A stretch of 64,000 nucleotides of DNA. It comes from Sulfitobacter noctilucicola (lineage in GTDB: Bacteria; Pseudomonadota; Alphaproteobacteria; Rhodobacterales; Rhodobacteraceae). The notes below the pieces were generated by a model. That model made no database searches. It saw nothing but the letters and a program-made list of their open reading frames with translations, and had not been told where the DNA came from. Of the stretch, positions 52,108 to 63,205 are shown piece by piece. A program made the position numbers and the translations under genes. Where the stretch lies: assembly GCF_000622385.1 (NCBI RefSeq), contig NZ_JASD01000008.1, positions 806,001 through 870,000 of the forward strand, read 5' to 3'. The stretch's first letter is position 1; every line of letters starts with the position of its first letter.

Positions 52108-53538
52108 CTATGCCCAGCGCGAGAATCCGAACATCAGATAATCACGCTGATACGCTTCCGATGTCAGCTTTTCGATCTGGTCATCGTAGATGTCGGCCAG
52201 CGCAAATGGTTGTTCCTCTGGTGCGACTGGCACTTCGGGGACGTTCTGGCACCCGACTGAAAGAGCCAGATCGCCCAGCTCTTTCGCCAGATCAGCTTCT
52301 CTGAGCACGTGGTCGGGCAGACAGAATTCACCAAAGCCTGATATCGCCTGATGTTGCGTACACCACGCGGCGTCCACGCGTATTGAAGTCTGCCCAGACA
52401 GGTTCCCCTTCAGGAACTTGAGAAACGCCACAAAACCTTTGCGGTGGGCATTGAGGTCATATCCCGCATCCGGCCCGTTCTCAGGCAGCGGCAGCTTGTA
52501 GCGCCGCACCATCGTTCTTCGCAGCTGAAGGAAGGATCCGCTATCGGCAGGCAGAATGTGCCTGCAATATGCTTCATGGGCGCGCTGAACAGGGTGCCGC
52601 AACACAGTAAAGCTGCGATGGCCTGGATGCTTTCGCTTCCATTGACGCACCTCTTTTTGCGACATCTTTGTAATCAGGTCGGAGCGGGTCACACCGTCAA
52701 GATCCGCCAACCAGCGCATGACTTGCGCTTGCGGGCCACTGCGTAATGGCAGGTACAACAACGGGGCATCAGCTGCGGCAACGTAGGACGGCACAACCGG
52801 CCCGCGTCGCGGTTCGAAATTGGGTGTCCGGGTCAGATCAAACCGGTCCATCTGCGATAACGCTTTCAGCATATCGTCGTAGTTATGAACCTTGGCTGAA
52901 ATCGGGCTTGGGTTTTGCTTCTTCAGGCTTTTGTCCAGCGCTTCCAGCTCTTCATCAACCCCGAGATAACGCGCCAAGCCATTCATCACATCAACGCTTT
53001 GCAGGTCTTCGTAGGCCACGTAAAATGCGGTCTGACCTGAAATCTGCAACCGGTTAAGCAACGTCACCTGAAATGCTTGCAACGCCTCAAGATGTGCGGC
53101 GAATTCCTTTGGGTCGAATTGCGCCTGTGCAACCTTGTGCGCTTTGACATCTGTCAGTTTCCACTGGCCGGTCTCCTGCGCGATCTTCCAGCTGACATAG
53201 CTTTCAACAGGATTGCGGGTCAGAATGATCTTGGCACAGGATGTGTCTTCCATGACCGCATCAAAAACGCGCGGGTCGTGATCATGGAAATACCTGAAGC
53301 CGCTTAGTCGTGCTGTATTGTTCTTTATCGCCGAAAGCAGAACTTTCGGGTCGGCGTCGCGGGTCTTTTGATCGATGCCAAGGATTGGCTCACTTTTCGG
53401 ATAACCCATAAAATGGGGATTGAACGCTTCCCCATGACAGTTGATGCCTTCAAAAGCGTTCAGATTGGCCTCAAGAAAGTTCGAGCCCGTCCGCATTTCT
53501 GCAAAGACGACAAAGCTCTGGAATTTCGTGCTTTTCAT
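52108..53538 (-). CDS. Two-module sulfotransferase (Stf0/NodH-like N-half fused to a second sulfotransferase-like half)
   Basis: The protein has 476 residues. The N-terminal half has the PAPS loop 'MRTGSNFLE' (15-23) and '3PB' motif 'LTRNPVESYVSW' (106-117), and matches Stf0/NodH-type enzymes. The second half repeats the plan in weaker form: 'LYLPLRSGPQAQVMRWL' (~261-277), then 'FTVLRHPVQRAHEAYCRHI' (~310-328). The second loop has lost the Gly-Ser/Thr pair, so it may no longer bind PAPS. The start codon follows directly on the stop of the core-2-like gene (TAG then ATG, no space), giving tight coupling. A sugar acceptor made by the two preceding glycosyltransferases is likely. Confidence 0.8.
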   Translation of the reverse strand: MKSTKFQSFVVFAEMRTGSNFLEANLNAFEGINCHGEAFNPHFMGYPKSEPILGIDQKTRDADPKVLLSAIKNNTARLSGFRYFHDHDPRVFDAVMEDTSCAKIILTRNPVESYVSWKIAQETGQWKLTDVKAHKVAQAQFDPKEFAAHLEALQAFQVTLLNRLQISGQTAFYVAYEDLQSVDVMNGLARYLGVDEELEALDKSLKKQNPSPISAKVHNYDDMLKALSQMDRFDLTRTPNFEPRRGPVVPSYVAAADAPLLYLPLRSGPQAQVMRWLADLDGVTRSDLITKMSQKEVRQWKRKHPGHRSFTVLRHPVQRAHEAYCRHILPADSGSFLQLRRTMVRRYKLPLPENGPDAGYDLNAHRKGFVAFLKFLKGNLSGQTSIRVDAAWCTQHQAISGFGEFCLPDHVLREADLAKELGDLALSVGCQNVPEVPVAPEEQPFALADIYDDQIEKLTSEAYQRDYLMFGFSRWA

Positions 53539-55236
53539 CTATTGTACCAGATAAGGTTTTCGTTGCGCCTTGGGTGTGGCCGTCAGCCCGCGCTCTACGG
53601 GGAAATCCCCCATAAGGTAGGGGTGCATCCCCTGGTTCTTGAGATTCTGAAGGAATTGACCAAAGCCTGACAAATCAACCATCTTTGGCGCTTCGGAAAG
53701 ACGGCGCAATTTGGTGCGTCCGATCTCGTCCAGAATACCCTGCAAAGGCTCCATCGGTGCTTCGATAAATTCTGCCATTGTCCAGATGCGTACGCGCGCC
53801 TTGGTGTAAGGAGAGCGCAGAATGTCCATATGCTCGCTCTCGATCTTTTGCAGGTTGGCCGCCTTCGCACGAATCTCTGCGAAATCGAGGTTCGAGCGGA
53901 ACAACGGCACAGCCCATGCGCCGGTAATCACCGAAACCTGCGCATTCGGATCTTTGGCCACGCGCCAACAGACATCCTGATTGTCCGCAGGGCCGAACTG
54001 AAAACACTGGCGTTCACCACGTGTGTTCCAGATCAGATTGGTCAGAAACCCCTTGCCGTTGTAGTCACGCAGAACGGGGTTGTCGGACAGCGCCCCGTTC
54101 AGCGCAGTCTGGCCATCAGCGTAATGGACGCGGTCCTTTGCAAATAAATGCCCGTGGACGCGCGCGCCCGTCGCGGAAGCAAGCCAAGGTTCGAAATTCT
54201 CGAACAGCTCTGAAAAGCCCTGAAACATCGAATAGGGTGCAGCAGTCACACCGTTTTCCCAATCCTCGTTCGGGAAACGGCTTTGCATATACAGGCCGGA
54301 TCGGCCGCGCGTCCGCCGCTCCACCGCCTTTGAGAATATCCGGTCAATCTTGCCCGGATTGGGTTCGGTTTTTTTCATCGCGCCAGCGGCATCGGTCAGA
54401 AACGCATCATAGAGCCGCGCCGCATAAGGCCATATCTTGCGTGCTACAAAGCAGTCAGACCGGCGCAAAAGTTGCAGGTGGTCGTCATAGAAAATGTGTG
54501 GTTTCCCCTGAAAGTCGAATTTGGACAAGGTCAGGGAACGACTTTCGATGTTGTTCGAATATTGCCGCGCCAACGTCTGGAAGTAACTCTCATCCGGGAT
54601 CCAGACCTGCCTGAAGAACCGGTCGTAGGTTGCTCTTTCAGGGTCCTGCAAGATCGCTGACAGGGTGCGCCGCGACAGACACCACCACTGCGACCCCATG
54701 TGCGGAGTGATCCCGTTTGGCATTTTACGCGCCAGATGAAAGCGGCGCTGGATATCGACAAAGAAATCGAACAGGAACCGGTTGCGCTTCCATGACACCG
54801 GAAATCTCAGGGTGAACCGCTCTTCATCAAGGCCACCCACGGTCCATGGAACCTCCGACGTTGTCGCGCTTTCGATGAAATCCTTATGCGGACGTTCAGC
54901 CAGATAGTCGATCAATTCCTGCACAGGGCGCAGCGGCAGACAGGAGCCGGATGCGAGGTAGACATGTCGCACGTCGGCATGATGGGCCAACAGCATTTCC
55001 GATGCGGCCTGCGTTGCCTGCACGATACCCCAAGTGCCCCACTCACATCGGTATCGCCCACTAAAAGACACATCCTTGAGGTCGGACAGGGCCGTCACGA
55101 AGGATTCGTATGTCCGCTTGTCCACAATCTTGTCGACATGAATGACCACCGGACAGCCGGCTGCCGACCAATGGCGGGCCACCTGTTCGGCGCGCCCAAG
55201 GGCCGTGTGTACCAACATGACGATGCCAACAGTCAT
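53539..55236 (-). CDS. Core-2/I-branching-like glycosyltransferase with C-terminal DUF5927-type domain
   Basis: The 565-residue protein has an N-terminal GT14 (Branch) domain: 'VMLVHTALGRAEQVARHWS', 'YLASGSCLPLRPVQELIDYL', 'HMGSQWWCLSRRTLSAIL' and 'PDESYFQTLARQYS' in the expected order (~1-260). The last ~280 residues form a domain of unknown function (DUF5927-like) seen behind this GT in roseobacters, with 'SRFPNEDWENGVTAAPYSMF' and 'HMDILRSPYTKARVRIW'. Animal GT14 enzymes add beta-1,6-GlcNAc or xylose; the bacterial donor is unknown. Start and stop are coupled to both neighbours (ATGA with the upstream gene, zero spacing to the downstream one). Confidence 0.85.
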   Translation of the reverse strand: MTVGIVMLVHTALGRAEQVARHWSAAGCPVVIHVDKIVDKRTYESFVTALSDLKDVSFSGRYRCEWGTWGIVQATQAASEMLLAHHADVRHVYLASGSCLPLRPVQELIDYLAERPHKDFIESATTSEVPWTVGGLDEERFTLRFPVSWKRNRFLFDFFVDIQRRFHLARKMPNGITPHMGSQWWCLSRRTLSAILQDPERATYDRFFRQVWIPDESYFQTLARQYSNNIESRSLTLSKFDFQGKPHIFYDDHLQLLRRSDCFVARKIWPYAARLYDAFLTDAAGAMKKTEPNPGKIDRIFSKAVERRTRGRSGLYMQSRFPNEDWENGVTAAPYSMFQGFSELFENFEPWLASATGARVHGHLFAKDRVHYADGQTALNGALSDNPVLRDYNGKGFLTNLIWNTRGERQCFQFGPADNQDVCWRVAKDPNAQVSVITGAWAVPLFRSNLDFAEIRAKAANLQKIESEHMDILRSPYTKARVRIWTMAEFIEAPMEPLQGILDEIGRTKLRRLSEAPKMVDLSGFGQFLQNLKNQGMHPYLMGDFPVERGLTATPKAQRKPYLVQ

Positions 55237-56243
55237 GCCCAGTTCCCTTTGGACATCAGACCCAGAATCTCAAGCTGTCGCCAATTGATGTAGCGTTCAG
55301 ACCATTTACACCACAGCTGGGGGTCATGCTTGAGCTGTTCGGCATAGGCGAGGTATTCGACCGACCCCGCATAGTGCTGTGACCGCTCCAGCTCTTCCGC
55401 GGCTTTGGCCCCGAACGTATCCAGAAACTTTGCATGCAACAGAACGCCTGAAGCCTTTTCGCCGCCCCATTCATCGTAGACCTGATTAAGACCCCGAGGC
55501 AGCAACATATGCGTAGAGCTGACATAGGCGTAGCGTTTGTCCCATTTGACCAGCGGCACTTTGTTCAGCGCCGGAGCCTTCTCCGGATTGTTGGGGAAAA
55601 ACACCCGCGCACGGGGACCGCCCTGTATCCAGAGGTTTGTAAAACGGTGATTGCGAGAGATCGTGTAGTTCCCGCTATCAAACCAGCAGGCGATATCCAT
55701 GGGGTTCTGACCTGCTTGGTACGGTTGCTCATCCAGCCGTCCCTTGGGGTACATATCCAACAGCATCGCAGAAAAGGACTTGATCGACGATGCATCAAGC
55801 CAATCCGTCAGCGCCCGCAGCGGACGGGTATCGCAGAACGGAAAGACAAGAAATTCATCAGGATCGACGGTCAGCGCCCAATGACCATGGGCATATTTCA
55901 TTTGCAGCCAGTTCAACCAGTCGACGCCAAAGCGCGCGCGCTTATAGCTCGCCTTGGTAGTCCAGATGGACACATCGGGCTGATCGGCAAGGTAGTCCAG
56001 CGACCCGTCATCGCTATCGTTATCCACAAAGAAGAAATGGCCCACGCCCATCTTGCGGTAGTAGTCCAGGAAATAGGGTAGCCGGATCATCTCATTGCGC
56101 TGGGTGCAGAACAGCAAAAGGTCGTCCGCACGGATTTGCCCCGTGCGGTTCGCAATCCGCTTGAGTTCCCGGCGTTTACGGATCGCCCGGATACGCCAGC
56201 GCTTACGTTGAAGCCTCAGTCCATATGACCGAAAAATGCCCAA
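55233..56243 (-). CDS. Family 2/92-like glycosyltransferase
   Basis: The 336-residue GT-A enzyme has a basic N-terminus, then 'LLFCTQRNEMIRLPYFLDYY', 'FFFVDNDSDDGSLDYL' and the metal-binding 'ALTVDPDEFLVFPF' (~123-136). This is the Glyco_tranf_2_4 pattern shared with GT92 (DUF23). It lacks a signal peptide. It is the first gene of a coupled trio with the core-2-like transferase and the double sulfotransferase. 47 bases separate it from the upstream GT4 gene. Donor and acceptor are unknown. Confidence 0.85.
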   Translation of the reverse strand: MGIFRSYGLRLQRKRWRIRAIRKRRELKRIANRTGQIRADDLLLFCTQRNEMIRLPYFLDYYRKMGVGHFFFVDNDSDDGSLDYLADQPDVSIWTTKASYKRARFGVDWLNWLQMKYAHGHWALTVDPDEFLVFPFCDTRPLRALTDWLDASSIKSFSAMLLDMYPKGRLDEQPYQAGQNPMDIACWFDSGNYTISRNHRFTNLWIQGGPRARVFFPNNPEKAPALNKVPLVKWDKRYAYVSSTHMLLPRGLNQVYDEWGGEKASGVLLHAKFLDTFGAKAAEELERSQHYAGSVEYLAYAEQLKHDPQLWCKWSERYINWRQLEILGLMSKGNWA

Positions 56244-56290: not shown

Positions 56291-57487
56291 TCATGTTAAC
56301 CTTAACACGGTCTTGAAATGATCAGCCCATGTCGGACCGTCAAAAATAACATCACTGCCTGCTGCTGACGACGTTTTCTGCCAGTTCTTGATCGTTTTTA
56401 ACCATAAATCAGCGTCTAAAACAGGTGCAAAAGAAGCCGAAGTACCTAAAACTTCACGTAAAACCGGTAGATCGTTGCATAAAACACGCGTTCCCAGACT
56501 GAGCGCTTCTATAGGAGGCAACCCATACCCTTCGGCGTGCGACGGGAACAGCAAGCCTGCGCTATTCCGAACCAACGTCATCAGCGCCTGATCTGATAGG
56601 TTCGAATGTTCTTTCACTGCCGATTGCGGTGGCAGGTGGTCCAGTCTGGAAAAGACATCTTCGTTGTTCCAACCACGCCGTCCGCAGATAAGTAGAGGCG
56701 GTGCCTCGGGCCCCATTTTTTCCCACAGATCCAGCAGAAAGCCGTGGTTTTTTCGCGGCTCGATCGTGCCAACTGCAATGAAATACGGCTGATCCGGTAA
56801 AGGACCGGAGGGTACAGATTCAATCTCTGTTGATGAGGTAATTGCCCCCAAATGCGCAACGATACCCATTGGCACCGAACCCCACCTGGACATGATTGCT
56901 TCGGTGCGCATTTGCGTGTCTGAAGAATTGTAGATGATGCGGTTCGCTGTCTTCGAGACCCGGCGCAGCTTTCTTTCAAAGGGTTTCACAGTACCAGGGC
57001 GCTGGAACTCGGGATATTCCAGAGGAATGACATCGTGAACCATAACCGATATATCGCCACCCGCAATCTGAACGCTGCGCAAAACCCGCTCTGTCAGGTT
57101 GCTGTGGCCGACGTTGAAATATTTAAAGCCGTCAGGCATCCGTCGCGCCAACATGCGCCGCAATCCGTTGGGCAAACACCGGCTGTTAGCATGCTGTCTC
57201 ACAAACGTTTCGGCTTGCATTACAAGCGCGTCGCGTCTTTTTGCCAGCCGCGACAACAGCTGCGCATCCGGCCAAGTATCATCGCCGTTCAAACGAAGCG
57301 AAAAAGCCCGAAGCCCGTCGCGGTCCAGCAAAACATATCCGAAGGCCGTTCGAAACAATCCGTATACAGGCACCTCATCAGTCAGGAACCGATCAAGATA
57401 GGCTCGCTCAACCCGATCCACACCCGTAGCAGTACGCCCTGCACGGCGCAGGCTCCTTGTCAGATCAAGCAGCCTAGGCTTTGACAT
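56291..57487 (-). CDS. Family 4 glycosyltransferase (GT-B)
   Basis: The 398-residue GT-B enzyme begins 'LLDLTRSLRRAGRTATGVDRVE', a form common in roseobacter and rhizobial GT4s. Its donor-binding half has 'YFIAVGTIEPRKNHGFLL' (~236-253) and 'LLFPSHAEGYGLPPIEALSLG' with the E-x7-E motif (~312-331, given here in part). It transfers a hexose or deoxyhexose with retention. One base separates its start from the galE stop, so UDP-galactose may be its donor; that is inference. Confidence 0.87.
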   Translation of the reverse strand: MSKPRLLDLTRSLRRAGRTATGVDRVERAYLDRFLTDEVPVYGLFRTAFGYVLLDRDGLRAFSLRLNGDDTWPDAQLLSRLAKRRDALVMQAETFVRQHANSRCLPNGLRRMLARRMPDGFKYFNVGHSNLTERVLRSVQIAGGDISVMVHDVIPLEYPEFQRPGTVKPFERKLRRVSKTANRIIYNSSDTQMRTEAIMSRWGSVPMGIVAHLGAITSSTEIESVPSGPLPDQPYFIAVGTIEPRKNHGFLLDLWEKMGPEAPPLLICGRRGWNNEDVFSRLDHLPPQSAVKEHSNLSDQALMTLVRNSAGLLFPSHAEGYGLPPIEALSLGTRVLCNDLPVLREVLGTSASFAPVLDADLWLKTIKNWQKTSSAAGSDVIFDGPTWADHFKTVLRLT

Positions 57488-57488
57488 A

Positions 57489-58472
57489 TCAGCCCTCGTA
57501 ATGGCCCGACTGATGCCATCTCCAAGCGTCCGTGATCATTTCTTTCATGTTTGACCGGTGCGGTTCCCATCCAAGCTCGTTGATCGCTCTTTGGGAGCCA
57601 GAGACCAGTTTGGTGCAATCTCCTGCACGGCGGGGGCCCTCAACATAAGGCACTGCGCGGTTGGTCACAGCATGACTTTCGTCCAATACCTCGCGCACCG
57701 AAAACCCCGTACCTGTACCCAGATTGAAGACCCGACTGTCTTTCCCCTCACGCAGCCATTTCAGGCCTAGAATATGCGCGTCTACCAAATCACAAACGTG
57801 CACATAGTCCCTGATACAGGTACCGTCCGGGGTGTCGTAATCTGTACCAAATATAGTTAACGCATCCCGCTTTCCGTCAATTGCATCAAGCATCAACGGC
57901 ACGAGGTGGGTCTCGGGTCTATGGTATTCGCCAACGTCACCCTCCGGATCAGCACCAGCGACATTGAAATAGCGAAAGATCACATGCCGAAGTCCGTGCG
58001 CGACTTCGAAATCGCGCAGCATATCTTCGATCGCCCTTTTAGACGCACCATAGGCGTTGATCGGCATCTGTACGCTGTCTTCGTCAAGCACCACGTTATC
58101 CTGATCGCCGTAGGTCGCGCAGGTGGACGAAAAAACAAAATCAAGACATCCGGCTGCGACAGCCGCTTCCATGAGGCTAAGCGATCCGGCGACATTGTTG
58201 CGCCAATATAGACCCGGATCTTGCATGCACTCCCCGACAAGGCTCAGCGCTGCGAAATGCATAACTGCAACAGGTTCATACTGGGCAAAAACAGAGTCTA
58301 ATTTGGCTCTGTCAAGCAGATCTCCCTGCTCGAAGGGCCCGAATTTTACCGCGTCTTTCCATCCGGTCACAAGACTATCGTAGGTAACGGGTATAAATCC
58401 CGCAGCCTTCAACGCTTTGCAGGCGTGTGATCCGATGTAACCGGCACCACCTGTCACCAACACATTTTTCAT
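57489..58472 (-). CDS. galE: UDP-glucose 4-epimerase
   Basis: The 327-residue extended SDR has 'LVTGGAGYIGSHACKAL' at the start, 'SSTCATYG' with the catalytic Ser/Thr and 'NAYGASKRAIEDML' with Tyr-x3-Lys, and 'GDGTCIRDYVHV'-like sequence ('DGTCIRDYVHVCDL'). It interconverts UDP-glucose and UDP-galactose. With galU 30 bases upstream it supplies both sugars to locus B. WbpP-type activity on N-acetyl sugars cannot be ruled out. Confidence 0.95.
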   Translation of the reverse strand: MKNVLVTGGAGYIGSHACKALKAAGFIPVTYDSLVTGWKDAVKFGPFEQGDLLDRAKLDSVFAQYEPVAVMHFAALSLVGECMQDPGLYWRNNVAGSLSLMEAAVAAGCLDFVFSSTCATYGDQDNVVLDEDSVQMPINAYGASKRAIEDMLRDFEVAHGLRHVIFRYFNVAGADPEGDVGEYHRPETHLVPLMLDAIDGKRDALTIFGTDYDTPDGTCIRDYVHVCDLVDAHILGLKWLREGKDSRVFNLGTGTGFSVREVLDESHAVTNRAVPYVEGPRRAGDCTKLVSGSQRAINELGWEPHRSNMKEMITDAWRWHQSGHYEG

Positions 58473-58502: not shown

Positions 58503-59390
58503 TCACGCGTCATCATCAAGCGATATTGAGCGCAGATAGGTCCGCAAATCGTCTCGCAATTCAGGGCGCGCCAAACCGAAAGAGACTGTCGCCTGCAAGA
58601 AGCCGGACTTTGACCCGCAATCAAAGCGCTGACCTTTGAAGCGGTAACCGTGTACATTGTCTTCCTCTTCGATATCCTGCGCGATTGCATCCGTGAGCTG
58701 GATTTCACCATTCGCGCCGGATTTCATCTTGTTAAGATTGCGCAGGACACTTGGTGACAGAATGTAACGGCCGATCACGGCAAGATTGGAAGGTGCCTTA
58801 TCAGCGTCGGGCTTTTCGACCATTCCCTTCACTTTGACCATCTCACCGTCTTGCTTGCTGATGTCCAGAATGCCGTAGGCGGAGGCACGCTCCGGCTCTA
58901 CCTCCATTGCTGCAACCATGTTGCCACCAGTTTCCTCATAAGCCTCTACCATCTGCTGAAGGCAGGGCTTCTCTGCTGCAATGACATCGTCAGGAAGAAT
59001 GACAGCAAAAGGCTCGTTGCCGATTAGGCGACGTGCGCACCACACAGCGTGACCAAGACCAAGCGCCTTGTGCTGGCGGATATAGGCGATCGCACCGCTG
59101 TCCATATTGGTCGATTTGAGAACGTCGAGAAGGTCCGTCTTTCCCTTCTTTCGCAACTCCTGCTCAAGTTGCGGAGACAGGTCGAAGTAGTCTTCCAACG
59201 CACCCTTGCCGCGCGACGTAACAAAGATGAATTCCTTGATCCCCGCTGCACGGGCTTCGTCAATGGCATACTGGATCAGAGGACGGTCAACGAGGGTCAT
59301 GATCTCCTTCGGGACCGACTTTGTCGCGGGCAAAAACCGCGTTCCCATGCCTGCAACCGGAAAGATCGCTTTTGTTACCTTTTTGCGCAT
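58503..59390 (-). CDS. galU: UTP-glucose-1-phosphate uridylyltransferase
   Basis: The protein has 295 residues from the ATG at 59390, with GAGG upstream; a start seven codons earlier has no site. The nucleotidyltransferase motif 'AIFPVAGMGTRFLPATKSVPKEI' is at the N-terminus (given here in part of the usual form) and 'EKPDADKAPSNLAVIGRYIL' in the middle. It makes UDP-glucose for glycans and, through galE, UDP-galactose. It sits between the GT2 gene and galE in one minus-strand block. Confidence 0.96.
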   Translation of the reverse strand: MRKKVTKAIFPVAGMGTRFLPATKSVPKEIMTLVDRPLIQYAIDEARAAGIKEFIFVTSRGKGALEDYFDLSPQLEQELRKKGKTDLLDVLKSTNMDSGAIAYIRQHKALGLGHAVWCARRLIGNEPFAVILPDDVIAAEKPCLQQMVEAYEETGGNMVAAMEVEPERASAYGILDISKQDGEMVKVKGMVEKPDADKAPSNLAVIGRYILSPSVLRNLNKMKSGANGEIQLTDAIAQDIEEEDNVHGYRFKGQRFDCGSKSGFLQATVSFGLARPELRDDLRTYLRSISLDDDA

Positions 59391-59435
59391 CGAATACCTC
59401 AATCTGTCCAAGTCGACTATGTCGACCCTATGTCT

Positions 59436-60671
59436 TTACTCTTCATTCAAACCGCGTTGTTTGCCAACACGGGTTCTTTCCCTTTCAACACGCCGAGACC
59501 GCGTTGTCATGCAAATTAGCGGATCGGAGCGCACCGATCTGCCGAAAAGACCGCCTTTTTGCACCCAAATGCCTTCGCTATGGTACATTATGCGATGATA
59601 TCTAGCATCGGGTGACAGCGACATCAGGGTGACAATCTCATTCTTTTTCACCCGACTTAAGGCTTGTGCCAAATCTCTTTTAAACCGCATAGGACGGGTT
59701 GCGATCAGTACTGATTGTTTCTTTTCTGACGGGAAATTTTGAAAGGGCTGAACCGGATGGGTTGCGATCCTTTCGGGTGATATCTCCCGCTTACTACCCT
59801 CTGCAAACCCCTGATCGAGACGCTTCATCAAGTGCCGCACGCCTATTGGGTCTAATCCACCACTGACCAGATGGCGCAGGAGGCGACGCCGCTCCTCAGA
59901 TCTCAGGCGTTTCCACTGCGATTTCCACTCAGCCTCGACCAGATGTTTACGCATGAAAACGGCCCAGCTCGCGCCTATGTCAAAGAGATCCTTTGGTATA
60001 CGCTCCCGGTTGCGTATGCTGTTGGCTGCAAAGCCGTGGTGCACTTCGGCCAATGGAACGAGAGCCGTCGCAAACCCCGCGCGGCCCAACCTCATATTCA
60101 AGTCGGTTTCATCCAAAAAATAGTGGTACGCCGGATCGAACCCGCCCAACTCGACCAAGACACTACGGCGGAACGCCATGTTGGTGCCTTCGGTCTTGAT
60201 TGCCCGCCCTTTCGGTGGATGCAGGACCGTCGCCTGTTCGGGGTGCAGATCAAGATCATGGGCGATGCCTAACCGGTCCAGACTTCGACCTTTCCATTGG
60301 TAGGATATGCCGTTTCGTCCCCGAACAAATCCGCCCATCGCAGCGACATCACTTTGTGCAGCCGGTGCCACCAGATATCTTAGCCATTGCGGCTCAGGCA
60401 CAGCATCATCATCAATAAATGCGACGACGTCACCAGCCGCTTGTGCAATGCCTAGATTTCGCGCTGCTGAAATATTGGGCACATCGTAGGCCACCAGTTT
60501 CAAATCACTCGCAAAGGGGAGGTTTTCCGCGACAGCGATGCCCGCCGGATCAGCGACGACAACAACCTCGAAGTTCGAATACTGTAGTTGTGATATCCCG
60601 GTCAGACATCGTATCAGCGCATCAGCGCGATCTCGGCTTACGACGACGATACTGACAGGGATATCTGTCAT
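59436..60671 (-). CDS. Family 2 glycosyltransferase with a C-terminal extension of unknown type
   Basis: In the 411-residue protein the GT2 domain covers ~1-235 ('VSIVVVSRDRADALIRCL', 'VAFIDDDAVPEPQWL', 'YFLDETDLNMRLGRAG'). The last ~175 residues are not part of GT2: first a basic helical stretch, then a beta-like part with 'KKNEIVTLMSLSPDARYHRI' and 'VQKGGLFGRSVRSDP' and a very basic tail. I do not recognise this extension. The start overlaps the kdsB stop by four bases (ATGA), so it is coupled to CMP-Kdo synthesis and may act on a Kdo-containing acceptor. Confidence 0.83.
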   Translation of the reverse strand: MTDIPVSIVVVSRDRADALIRCLTGISQLQYSNFEVVVVADPAGIAVAENLPFASDLKLVAYDVPNISAARNLGIAQAAGDVVAFIDDDAVPEPQWLRYLVAPAAQSDVAAMGGFVRGRNGISYQWKGRSLDRLGIAHDLDLHPEQATVLHPPKGRAIKTEGTNMAFRRSVLVELGGFDPAYHYFLDETDLNMRLGRAGFATALVPLAEVHHGFAANSIRNRERIPKDLFDIGASWAVFMRKHLVEAEWKSQWKRLRSEERRRLLRHLVSGGLDPIGVRHLMKRLDQGFAEGSKREISPERIATHPVQPFQNFPSEKKQSVLIATRPMRFKRDLAQALSRVKKNEIVTLMSLSPDARYHRIMYHSEGIWVQKGGLFGRSVRSDPLICMTTRSRRVERERTRVGKQRGLNEE

Positions 60672-61468
60672 TCAAGGTCCATATTTGCCATCATAGACTC
60701 TATTCTCGGCACATCTTCGGGATTGTTGAGCTCCCAGAATTCTCTTCCCTGAGCTTTCACCTCGACACATAGAACCGCATGTCCATTTTCCATGAACCGA
60801 AGCTGCTCAAGCCCTTCGAGTTGCTCGAGCGGACCTACCGGCCAAGACGCATAGCTGGCCAAGGCTGCAGGCCGGTATGCATAAACCCCGACATGATGGA
60901 AAACTGGCGTTTGATCAGAGCCTGAATAAACTTCTGAGGTAAACGGTACGACTTCTTTCGAGAAATAGAGCGCCGTGTGACTGCGATCAAAAACTGCCGT
61001 TGTGCCACCGACGCGTCCAGCTTTCCGATCAGCAAGCAGCCCGTTCAAAGCAATGCCATCGCAACGCAAAACCGGAGTTGCGATACCCGCATCCGGCGCA
61101 TCACGCAGACCCTGTACAAGGCTTTCGACAAACCAATGCGGTGTAAGTGGCGCATCACCTTGTAGGTTCACCACGATGTCATAACCGCCGCCCAGCGCAT
61201 CATGCGCCTCTGCGCACCGTTCCGTCCCGTTCGCACAATCAGTCGAAGTCATGACAACTTCGGCCCCGAAACCTTCAGCCGCGTCCTTGATGCGACCATC
61301 GTCAGTAGCAACAACAACCTTATCGACGCCGGCAACCTGCATCGCAGCCAGCCATGACCGCTCAATCAAACTGCGCGATACGCCCCCCGCCCCTTTCAGA
61401 GCGGCGAGCGGCTTACCGGGATAGCGCGAAGACGCAAAGCGTGCTGGTATAACAATCAGAACCGACAT
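60668..61468 (-). CDS. kdsB: 3-deoxy-manno-octulosonate cytidylyltransferase (CMP-Kdo synthetase)
   Basis: The 266-residue protein has the KdsB/KpsU start 'VIPARFASSRYPGKPLAALKG' and later 'VVVATDDGRI', 'NLQGDAPLTPHWF' and 'HHVGVYAYRPAAL'. It activates Kdo as CMP-Kdo. Its place between cysQ and glycosyltransferase genes rather than among LPS-core genes resembles KpsU of group 2 capsule loci, where Kdo forms the lipid linker. It overlaps the cysQ stop by one base. The Kdo transferases KpsC and KpsS are not in the window. Confidence 0.95.
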   Translation of the reverse strand: MSVLIVIPARFASSRYPGKPLAALKGAGGVSRSLIERSWLAAMQVAGVDKVVVATDDGRIKDAAEGFGAEVVMTSTDCANGTERCAEAHDALGGGYDIVVNLQGDAPLTPHWFVESLVQGLRDAPDAGIATPVLRCDGIALNGLLADRKAGRVGGTTAVFDRSHTALYFSKEVVPFTSEVYSGSDQTPVFHHVGVYAYRPAALASYASWPVGPLEQLEGLEQLRFMENGHAVLCVEVKAQGREFWELNNPEDVPRIESMMANMDLE

Positions 61469-62265
61469 CAGGCAGGCTTAAGCGCGACTGTCGGGGCATG
61501 GGCGATAAAGAAAGGATTTGCGAAATCCTCTTTGCCATAAGTGAGCAGTGAATGGTCATCAAAGCGGACAACCTTCCCCCCAGCACCCGTCAACACTGCG
61601 TGCCCTGCTGCCGTATCCCATTCCATCGTGCGGCCCAGCCGCGGATAAAGGTCTGCCTCCCCCGTTGCGATCAGACAGAACTTGAGCGAAGAACCCGCGC
61701 TGGTCATGTCCCGAACACCGTATTTCCCGATATAGTCATCCGTCGCCTGATCCCTGTGAGATTTGGACGCAACCACCATCAAGGCGGAATTGTCCGCATC
61801 AGAGACTGATATCGGCTTGGTAGGACCGACTTGGTCCTTGTCAAAGTCACCGGTCTCTTCCACTGACTGACCGTCGGCCAAAGTGAAGAACATGCGCGAT
61901 TTTGCCGGTGCATAAACAACGCCCCGTGTGGGCTGACCCTTTTCGACCAGCGCGATGTTCACCGTGAAATCCCCACGGCGGTGAATAAATTCTTTGGTGC
62001 CGTCCAGCGGATCAACAATCAAAAAGGTATCACCCCGAGCTTCGTGCGTTGCTGCCTGCTCTTCGGTTACCAGCATCACATCCGGAAAGGCAGACCGCAG
62101 TCCCGCGCTGATAATTGCATCCGCCGCCTCATCTGCTTCGGTGACAGGACTGTCATCAGACTTCGATTTTACATCAAAATCATCGCGACCATAGATCTCC
62201 ATGATTTTGTCGCCCGCCTCCAATGATAGCTTGCGCATCACACTCACCAGTTTTTCGTAGTCCAT
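61468..62265 (-). CDS. cysQ: 3'(2'),5'-bisphosphate nucleotidase
   Basis: The 265-residue inositol-monophosphatase-fold enzyme has 'SPVTEADEAADAII' (~39-52), 'IVDPLDGTKEFIHRRGDFTV' (~83-102) and 'MEWDTAAGHAVL' near the end; the metal ligands Glu, Asp, Asp and the Thr are all present. CysQ dephosphorylates 3'-phosphoadenosine-5'-phosphate (PAP), the product of PAPS-using sulfotransferases and of sulfate assimilation. As the first gene of the polysaccharide block that ends in a sulfotransferase, it probably keeps sulfation running by removing PAP. It is divergent from an ABC permease gene across 115 bases. Confidence 0.95.
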   Translation of the reverse strand: MDYEKLVSVMRKLSLEAGDKIMEIYGRDDFDVKSKSDDSPVTEADEAADAIISAGLRSAFPDVMLVTEEQAATHEARGDTFLIVDPLDGTKEFIHRRGDFTVNIALVEKGQPTRGVVYAPAKSRMFFTLADGQSVEETGDFDKDQVGPTKPISVSDADNSALMVVASKSHRDQATDDYIGKYGVRDMTSAGSSLKFCLIATGEADLYPRLGRTMEWDTAAGHAVLTGAGGKVVRFDDHSLLTYGKEDFANPFFIAHAPTVALKPA

Positions 62266-62380: not shown

Positions 62381-63205
62381 ATGTTTCAGACAAGACGCAA
62401 ACCGCAAGGTGGAATTACATCGGCCCTGTCTATCGCGGAACTCGTGTACCATTCGGTCGTCCGCAGCGTGCGCAGGCAACACAATAACGCCTTTGTCGCG
62501 ATTGCGATGAATATTATGCAGACGGTGCTGTTCATTGCAGCGTTCTATGTCATGTTTTCTGTTCTTGGTATGCGGGCCTCCGCAGTGCGGGGCGATTTCC
62601 TCATCTATCTGATGACCGGCATCTTTCTTTATATGACGCATATCAAAGCATTGAGCGCCGTGCTGGGTTCTGAGGGGCCAGCCAGCCCGATGATGCAACA
62701 CGCTCCGATGAACACAATCATCTCGATCCTGTCAGCTGCTGTGGGCGCGCTCTATATTCAGGTTCTATCCCTTGTTATTGTACTTTTTGCCTACCACGTG
62801 GCGTGGACACCGGTTGTGATTGATCAACCCTTCGCTGCTTTTGGCATGTTGGTCGTTGCTTGGTTTAGCGGATGTGCCCTTGGTCTCGTCTTTTTGGCGC
62901 TAAAGCCATGGTTTCCCTCAATCGTCGCTTTGCTTGCCATGGTATACCAACGGGCAAACATGGTCGCTTCTGGTAAGATGTTTCTCGCGAATTCACTGCC
63001 GAGCTTCATGCTGTCTATGTTTGACTGGAACCCGCTTTTTCATGTGATTGATCAGGCGCGGGGCTTTGCGTTCATCAACTACAACCCACGCTATTCGGAT
63101 TGGCACTATTCAATGTGGATCGGCGTTGTTGCGCTAATGATTGGGTTGATGGGCGAGTTTTACACACGCCGCCACGCCTCCCTCAGCTGGGATGCACGCC
63201 GCTAG
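62381..63205 (+). CDS. ABC-2 type polysaccharide export permease (second KpsM-like protein)
   Basis: The 274-residue protein has about six hydrophobic segments and the ABC-2 permease layout. The N-terminal 'AELVYHSVVRSVRRQHNNAF' resembles the amphipathic start of KpsM/RkpT permeases, and 'FDWNPLFHVIDQARGFAFINY' resembles the conserved 'NPLxHxxexxR' part near the C-terminus. It is similar in size to the KpsM at 6888-7712 but clearly diverged from it. No ATPase gene is next to it, so it would need KpsT from elsewhere. Other ABC-2 exporters cannot be excluded. Confidence 0.8.
   Translation: MFQTRRKPQGGITSALSIAELVYHSVVRSVRRQHNNAFVAIAMNIMQTVLFIAAFYVMFSVLGMRASAVRGDFLIYLMTGIFLYMTHIKALSAVLGSEGPASPMMQHAPMNTIISILSAAVGALYIQVLSLVIVLFAYHVAWTPVVIDQPFAAFGMLVVAWFSGCALGLVFLALKPWFPSIVALLAMVYQRANMVASGKMFLANSLPSFMLSMFDWNPLFHVIDQARGFAFINYNPRYSDWHYSMWIGVVALMIGLMGEFYTRRHASLSWDARR

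Follow-up and report, generated by a model that had tools for sequence, protein, structure and literature searches.

The subject of this analysis is a group of three minus-strand open reading frames (ORFs) at positions 52108–56243 of a window of 64,000 nucleotides from Sulfitobacter noctilucicola (contig NZ_JASD01000008.1, positions 806,001–870,000 of the forward strand). An initial annotation, made from the letters alone, had described them as a tightly coupled cassette in which a GT92-like transferase, a core-2-like glycosyltransferase with a DUF5927 domain and a two-module sulfotransferase would act as a dedicated sulfated-glycan maker. All three ORFs lie where that annotation had placed them:

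52108–53538, minus strand: two-module sulfotransferase, 476 aa; module 1 (approximately residues 1–245) Stf0/NodH-like, module 2 (approximately 246–476) Sulfotransfer_2-like
53539–55236, minus strand: core-2-like (Branch, PF02485) glycosyltransferase fused to DUF5927 (PF19349), 565 aa
55233–56243, minus strand: GT-A-type glycosyltransferase, PF13704 (initially called GT92-like), 336 aa, TTG start

The junctions are likewise as annotated: TCAT of the plus strand at 55233–55236 is read as ATGA on the minus strand, where the PF13704 gene overlaps the Branch gene, and the Branch stop codon TAG (53541–53539) abuts the sulfotransferase ATG (53538–53536) with no base between. The trio is the end of a minus-strand run of nine genes, CysQ-KdsB-GT2-GalU-GalE-GT4-GT(PF13704)-Branch/DUF5927-sulfotransferase, and the six further genes upstream, read in the same direction, were absent from the initial annotation.

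The Pfam searches identified PF02485 (E 8.3e-18) and PF19349 (E 1.7e-163) in the single ORF at 53539–55236, the product of which thus combines a core-2-like domain with DUF5927, as proposed; a GT-A fold was found together with the Branch match. The closest named relative among the matches listed, which may omit records very near the source genome, is a protein of Sulfitobacter noctilucae (92% identity). The first enzyme matched PF13704 (Glyco_tranf_2_4, E 1.2e-33), a family that we take to be of the GT-A type, and no other Pfam family even at E 10; no GT92 model was among the matches, and membership in GT92 found no support. In the sulfotransferase, Sulfotransfer_2 (PF03567) matched residues 297–473 (E 2.2e-6, over cut-off) and Sulfotransfer_3 (PF13469) residues 13–194 (E 6.2e-4, under cut-off), so the description as a two-module protein holds.

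DUF5927 and the sulfotransferase modules

Module 1 exhibits the sulfotransferase fold and resembles a structure titled LPS (lipopolysaccharide) sulfotransferase NodH (E 4.3e-4). In an alignment of 120 rows (112 distinct sequences), R16, G18, S19 and N20 are conserved in 119 rows, T17 in 116, R108 in all 120 and S116 in 119; we take these residues to be the 5'-phosphosulfate-binding loop and the 3'-phosphate-binding Arg/Ser of enzymes that use 3'-phosphoadenosine-5'-phosphosulfate (PAPS). Judging by the conserved motifs and the fold, module 1 is predicted to be an active PAPS-dependent carbohydrate sulfotransferase. Module 2 (residues 246–476) keeps the PAPS motifs in part, with an invariant P316/R319 pair and the usual PAPS serine missing. 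Its profile-profile alignment with module 1 covered 47 columns (E 5.5e-4) and did not hold up when divergent rows were used (E 0.018), so its tie to the sulfotransferases rests on PF03567.

The profile-profile analysis with hhalign identified a relationship between DUF5927 and module 1 (E 2.9e-5, probability 73.6, 150 columns), while ten other profiles from the same loci, module 2 included, gave E 0.14 to 0.77 against DUF5927, and the lowest control pair, module 1 versus CysQ, gave 0.022. When both profiles were built from divergent rows only (15 and 14), the relationship became E 1.8e-7 (probability 93.7, 188 columns), compared with 0.10 to 0.62 for eight unrelated profiles. The top score of 150 column shuffles of the full DUF5927 profile was 22.0, and that of the reversed profile 22.1, versus 40.8 observed. 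By our own comparison, helices and strands succeed one another in residues 335–505 of DUF5927 as they do in module 1 (strand, helix, strand, two helices, strand, helix, strand, long helix, strand, two helices), except that DUF5927 has one short helix in place of the pair that follows the fourth strand of module 1. The alignment passes through SMFQGFSELFENFEPWL...VHGHLF versus VVFAEMRTGSNFLEANL...CHGEAF. DUF5927 is very probably homologous to the sulfotransferase fold, as judged from these profiles. It lacks the PAPS motifs: SELFE faces the module 1 loop RTGSN, and a gap of 16 residues spans the segment from R108 to S116. Because the PAPS loop is replaced and the R108/S116 segment is gone, the domain would be a homologous and yet inactive member, and, if it does descend from a sulfotransferase, it has very probably lost PAPS binding. 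Thus, DUF5927 is probably a degenerate sulfotransferase domain on the core-2-like transferase.

A direct tie of DUF5927 to the wider superfamily found no support in a comparison with 15 Sulfotransfer_3-type proteins that had been selected from 30 loci by their motifs: the value obtained, E 0.016, was the next best after module 1 but no better than the nulls (0.024 for the reversed profile, 0.025 for the best shuffle). Run against 147 ORFs of these 30 loci, the DUF5927 HMM (hidden Markov model) reached E 0.026 at best, and the module 1 HMM listed none; Pfam scans of 10 single DUF5927 sequences at E 10 revealed no sulfotransferase match. As the independent set reaches only the null level, DUF5927 is tied to the neighbouring module 1 and, through module 1, to the wider superfamily. 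A fold search with the whole Branch-DUF5927 model returned a list filled by Branch-domain chains, which has no bearing on DUF5927.

Distribution and synteny

The family sample comprised 149 genomes of 148 genera, about one per genus, and was taken as Rhodobacteraceae on the basis of the named loci described below. DUF5927 was matched in 121 of the 149 genomes and is single-copy in nearly all that carry it; the PF13704 protein was found in 128, or 122 if six weak matches are set aside, and the sulfotransferase likewise in 122, including a weak match elsewhere in the genome of G074. A colinear trio (same contig and strand, within 3.5 kb) is present in 116 genomes. DUF5927 occurs with one partner missed in five more: two have contig breaks there (G028, G118), one has its sulfotransferase on a different contig (G085), and two have no sulfotransferase at the locus (G057, G074). 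Other parts of the locus alone were found in four genomes (G119, G142 and G133, at contig ends, and G148, a sulfotransferase remnant), and 24 lack any part. In a class-wide sample DUF5927 was found in 4 of 289 genomes and in a phylum-wide sample in 27 of 398, all from the same family (the non-matching genomes of these two samples are only partly listed); in the samples drawn, the domain is restricted to one family.

The 80 named loci are the best of at least 588 confirmed candidates, and therefore lean to close relatives; eight of them have Branch proteins identical to those of the family sample. Where the contig leaves room, Branch has the PF13704 gene as a neighbour in 77 of 77 loci and the sulfotransferase gene in 74 of 77; it has both in 72 of 75. 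The expectation that the trio is kept together in related genomes is thus borne out, both here and in the colinear loci of the family sample. The supposed tight coupling held for the source genome, whereas the exact spacing is not conserved: the 4-base overlap between PF13704 and Branch genes was seen in 38 of the 80 loci (tblastn extents, approximate), and the gap between the Branch stop and the sulfotransferase ATG is 0 bases in 6 of 77, the commonest values being 6 (36 loci) and 3 (18 loci). Close packing of the trio is a trend, not an exact feature. As for a dedicated glycan maker, the three genes are indeed retained together, but they form the end of a larger run and are not self-contained; the stand-alone three-gene cassette was rejected on the synteny.

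Upstream of the trio, GT4 was matched in 42 of the 80 loci and a second PF13704 gene in 30, none of which has a GT4 match, so that the two seem to swap in a variable slot. The second PF13704 copy is diverged and lies near the first (e.g. L074:7861–8811), directly upstream in the five rows inspected. In three Roseobacter isolates (L081, L082, L090, near 11700) there is no sulfotransferase and Branch is followed directly by EIIA, an absence that may reflect one loss event; these isolates are natural candidates for an unsulfated version. The PF13704 and Branch genes stay in the five cases without an adjoining sulfotransferase (G057, G074, L081, L082, L090), which fits sulfation as a late decoration. 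In G148, rated 99% complete, a C-terminal sulfotransferase remnant stands beside EIIA (L050:7602–8777) with no strong PF13704 or Branch match, and the locus looks deleted.

The nine-gene run and a proposed pathway

The remaining genes of the run and the divergent gene beyond it are:

56291–57487, minus strand: GT4-type glycosyltransferase, variable slot (Pfam)
57489–58472, minus strand: GalE, UDP-glucose 4-epimerase (TIGR01179, over cut-off)
58503–59411, minus strand: GalU, UTP-glucose-1-phosphate uridylyltransferase (TIGR01099, over cut-off)
59436–60671, minus strand: GT2-type glycosyltransferase (Pfam)
60668–61468, minus strand: KdsB, synthetase of CMP-Kdo (Kdo, 3-deoxy-D-manno-octulosonic acid) (NF003950, over cut-off)
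61468–62265, minus strand: CysQ, 3'(2'),5'-bisphosphate nucleotidase (TIGR01331, over cut-off)
62381–63205, plus strand: divergent KpsM/VexB-like permease of a polysaccharide ABC (ATP-binding cassette) transporter (VexB E 1.2e-12, KpsM E 5.6e-8)

The nine genes are presumably read as a single transcript. The convergent flank past the sulfotransferase begins with EIIA (PF00359, Pfam), followed by genes that we take to be raiA, lptB, lptA, lptC, kdsD and a ribonuclease D-like gene, assigned in our own reading and not by a family search. The only PDB match of the permease under E 0.1 is 8tsh (E 1.3e-4), which belongs to a study of KpsMT-KpsE (PMC11041684).

On balance we favour the reading that the run is an operon fixed across most of the family, with the trio as the end that assembles and decorates, and that its product is a sulfated glycan carried by a Kdo anchor from KpsS and KpsC and exported by a KpsM-type ABC transporter. 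As to substrates, order of steps and export route, KdsB would provide CMP-Kdo, and GalU and GalE would provide UDP-Glc and UDP-Gal; the GT2, GT4 and PF13704 enzymes would lengthen the chain, the core-2-like enzyme would add a branch or side sugar, and module 1 would transfer sulfate from PAPS to the new glycan, CysQ removing the 3'-phosphoadenosine-5'-phosphate (PAP) left by sulfotransfer. DUF5927, behind the branching enzyme and without a PAPS site, would probably hold the acceptor or the neighbouring sulfotransferase. The fuller proposal, that an ex-sulfotransferase turned into a docking or acceptor-reading domain, paired with the adjoining active sulfotransferase, couples branching to sulfation and that the product is a Kdo-anchored sulfated glycan in most family members, is put forward only tentatively.

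KpsC/KpsS (PF05159) were found in 138 of the 149 family genomes, and their loss follows that of the locus: they are absent from none of the 125 genomes with any strong part of the locus and from 11 of the 24 without it, or from 16 of 24 versus 0 of 125 under a loose definition that treats matches weaker than 1e-20 as absent, a threshold picked after the table had been seen. The source genome has both KpsC and KpsS, as found in group 2 capsule systems; of its two PF05159 proteins, one has three matched stretches and the other a single one; which is KpsC and which KpsS was assigned in our own reading, and their genes flank an SLBB export gene. To allow for shared ancestry, a SecA tree was built from 81 genomes: 61 of the 125 that carry the locus and 20 of the 24 that lack it, the other four having no SecA or a partial one. 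This tree requires 13 changes of the locus, of which well-supported branches force at least 7. In seven independent pairs, KpsC/S under the loose definition changed the same way as the locus in 6.0 on average and the opposite way in 0.0 (median p 0.031), and the corresponding same-way values were 0.9 for WaaA, 2.2 for Wzz and 1.7 for the kinase of adenosine-5'-phosphosulfate (APS).

Several points weigh against the reading of a Kdo-anchored capsule-type glycan. Besides the late choice of the loose threshold, the strict definition gave 5.1 same-way pairs with a median p of 0.0625, the 61 locus-bearing genomes were hand-picked to include divergent ones, and the tree is built from SecA as a single gene and leaves 30 of its 78 inner branches open. 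KpsC/S are kept in 8 of the 24 genomes without the locus, and in the source genome kpsS and kpsC lie outside it, about 1.3 Mb off. Both permease matches are under the NCBIfam cut-offs, and no ATPase gene was seen adjoining the permease, none having been searched for elsewhere. Nearly every family genome has an APS kinase (137 of 149), so PAPS supply does not discriminate, and the kinase was rejected as a discriminating partner. In the plain count, 7 of 24 locus-free genomes lack WaaA, compared with 2 of 125 locus-bearing ones (Fisher 3.6e-5), and convergence on the genes read as lptC-lptA-lptB and kdsD would suit LPS too.

Alternative readings and known systems

These last two points belong to a rather unlikely alternative, in which the product of the operon is a sulfated LPS core, or a short sulfated glycan linked to LPS, made from Kdo, Glc and Gal precursors, and the operon is near-universal because the core oligosaccharide is conserved. 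The kdsB gene within the locus, the single copy of DUF5927 in nearly all carriers and the likeness of module 1 to the NodH structure fit such a product as well; 17 of the 24 locus-free genomes, however, keep a WaaA-family (PF04413) match, the divergent exporter is KpsM-like, and the correlation of WaaA with the locus in the plain count was not upheld in the independent pairs, where KpsC/S followed the locus in 5.1–6.0. Considerably less probable is a short conserved sulfated "transition" glycan that joins a poly-Kdo anchor to strain-variable capsules; it would explain the fixation of the locus in spite of the usual variability of capsules, the retention of KpsC/S in some locus-free genomes when no locus-bearing genome lacks them, and the contrast between a variable GT2/GT4 part and the fixed PF13704-Branch pair, and transferases that make such a linker between glycolipid and capsule are known from Actinobacillus (PMC11666461), but no variable polymer locus is tied to the operon. 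We give still less weight to a sulfated product of another kind, whether an exopolysaccharide, a glycolipid or a glycoprotein, that has no relation to KpsC/S, the co-loss being due to general simplification of the envelope. Part of the KpsC/S signal is general, since WaaA, Wzz (missing in 13 of 125 versus 8 of 24, Fisher 0.0072, plain count) and APS kinase (7 of 125 versus 5 of 24, Fisher 0.026, plain count) are also rarer without the locus; these correlations are nevertheless weaker, and KpsC/S alone of the four follow the locus in most independent pairs. As a separate observation, three family genomes rated 97–100% complete (G101, G054, G136) have neither a WaaA-family match nor the sulfated-glycan locus, and possibly possess an unusual lipid A or LPS.

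The favoured reading resembles the group 2 (KpsSC, ABC-transporter-dependent) capsules in its KpsC/KpsS-type genes, present and co-lost, its candidate KpsM-like permease and KdsB, and differs in that KpsC/S are unlinked to the glycan genes and that sulfation is predicted. The sulfotransferase differs from carbohydrate sulfotransferases of the Stf0/NodH type in its fused second, Sulfotransfer_2-like module and in the degenerate relative carried by the adjoining transferase, and the latter differs from the GT14 core-2 beta-1,6-GlcNAc transferase (C2GnT-L) and xylosyltransferase 1 in its 15% identity, bacterial origin and DUF5927 tail. A "sulfotransferase-like domain" is presumably borne by an animal epimerase-like protein as well, also a sugar-acting enzyme with a sulfotransferase-like part, though animal, a different enzyme and likened here by description only. 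The term occurs in papers on dermatan sulfate and its epimerases (PMC4920151, PMC5784981). The report on Cobetia marina KMM 1449 (PMC11766843) describes a sulfated capsule cluster that shares kpsSC, an ABC transporter, glycosyltransferase and sulfotransferase genes and cysQ, and has PAPS genes too; it comprises about 70 genes in several regions with dTDP-Rha/GDP-Man, whereas the present run is compact, with nine genes that include UDP-Glc/Gal genes and a Branch-DUF5927 fusion, lies apart from kpsSC and is nearly fixed in the family. A sulfated capsule with sulfotransferase genes is reported from Vibrio (PMC11641403). In Roseobacter, KpsC and KpsT are named in expression data only (PMC10090131), and a teichoic acid-type polymer, not sulfated, of one Sulfitobacter brevis strain (PMC3210612) is neutral here. 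A link to the gene-transfer-agent receptor genes of R. capsulatus was set aside, as rcc01081–01086 and rcc01932 are given other functions (PMC10218006). Our literature searches, with most subscription journals outside their coverage, found no description of a family-wide operon, of its KpsC/S link or of the origin of DUF5927, and no paper naming this domain.

The analysis points to a likely origin of DUF5927 and to a role that can be tested, and the fusion protein would be an example of a glycosyltransferase that carries a decayed relative of the adjoining modifying enzyme. The locus is usually single-copy and syntenic, and therefore its deletion should be simple. If the fuller proposal is true, a Kdo-anchored sulfated glycan, which did not turn up in the literature searched, would be a shared surface feature of the roseobacters and their relatives. 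Such a sulfated surface glycan in most sampled Rhodobacteraceae genera could bear on the attachment to algae, on the receptors of phages and gene transfer agents, and on the marine pool of sulfated carbohydrates.
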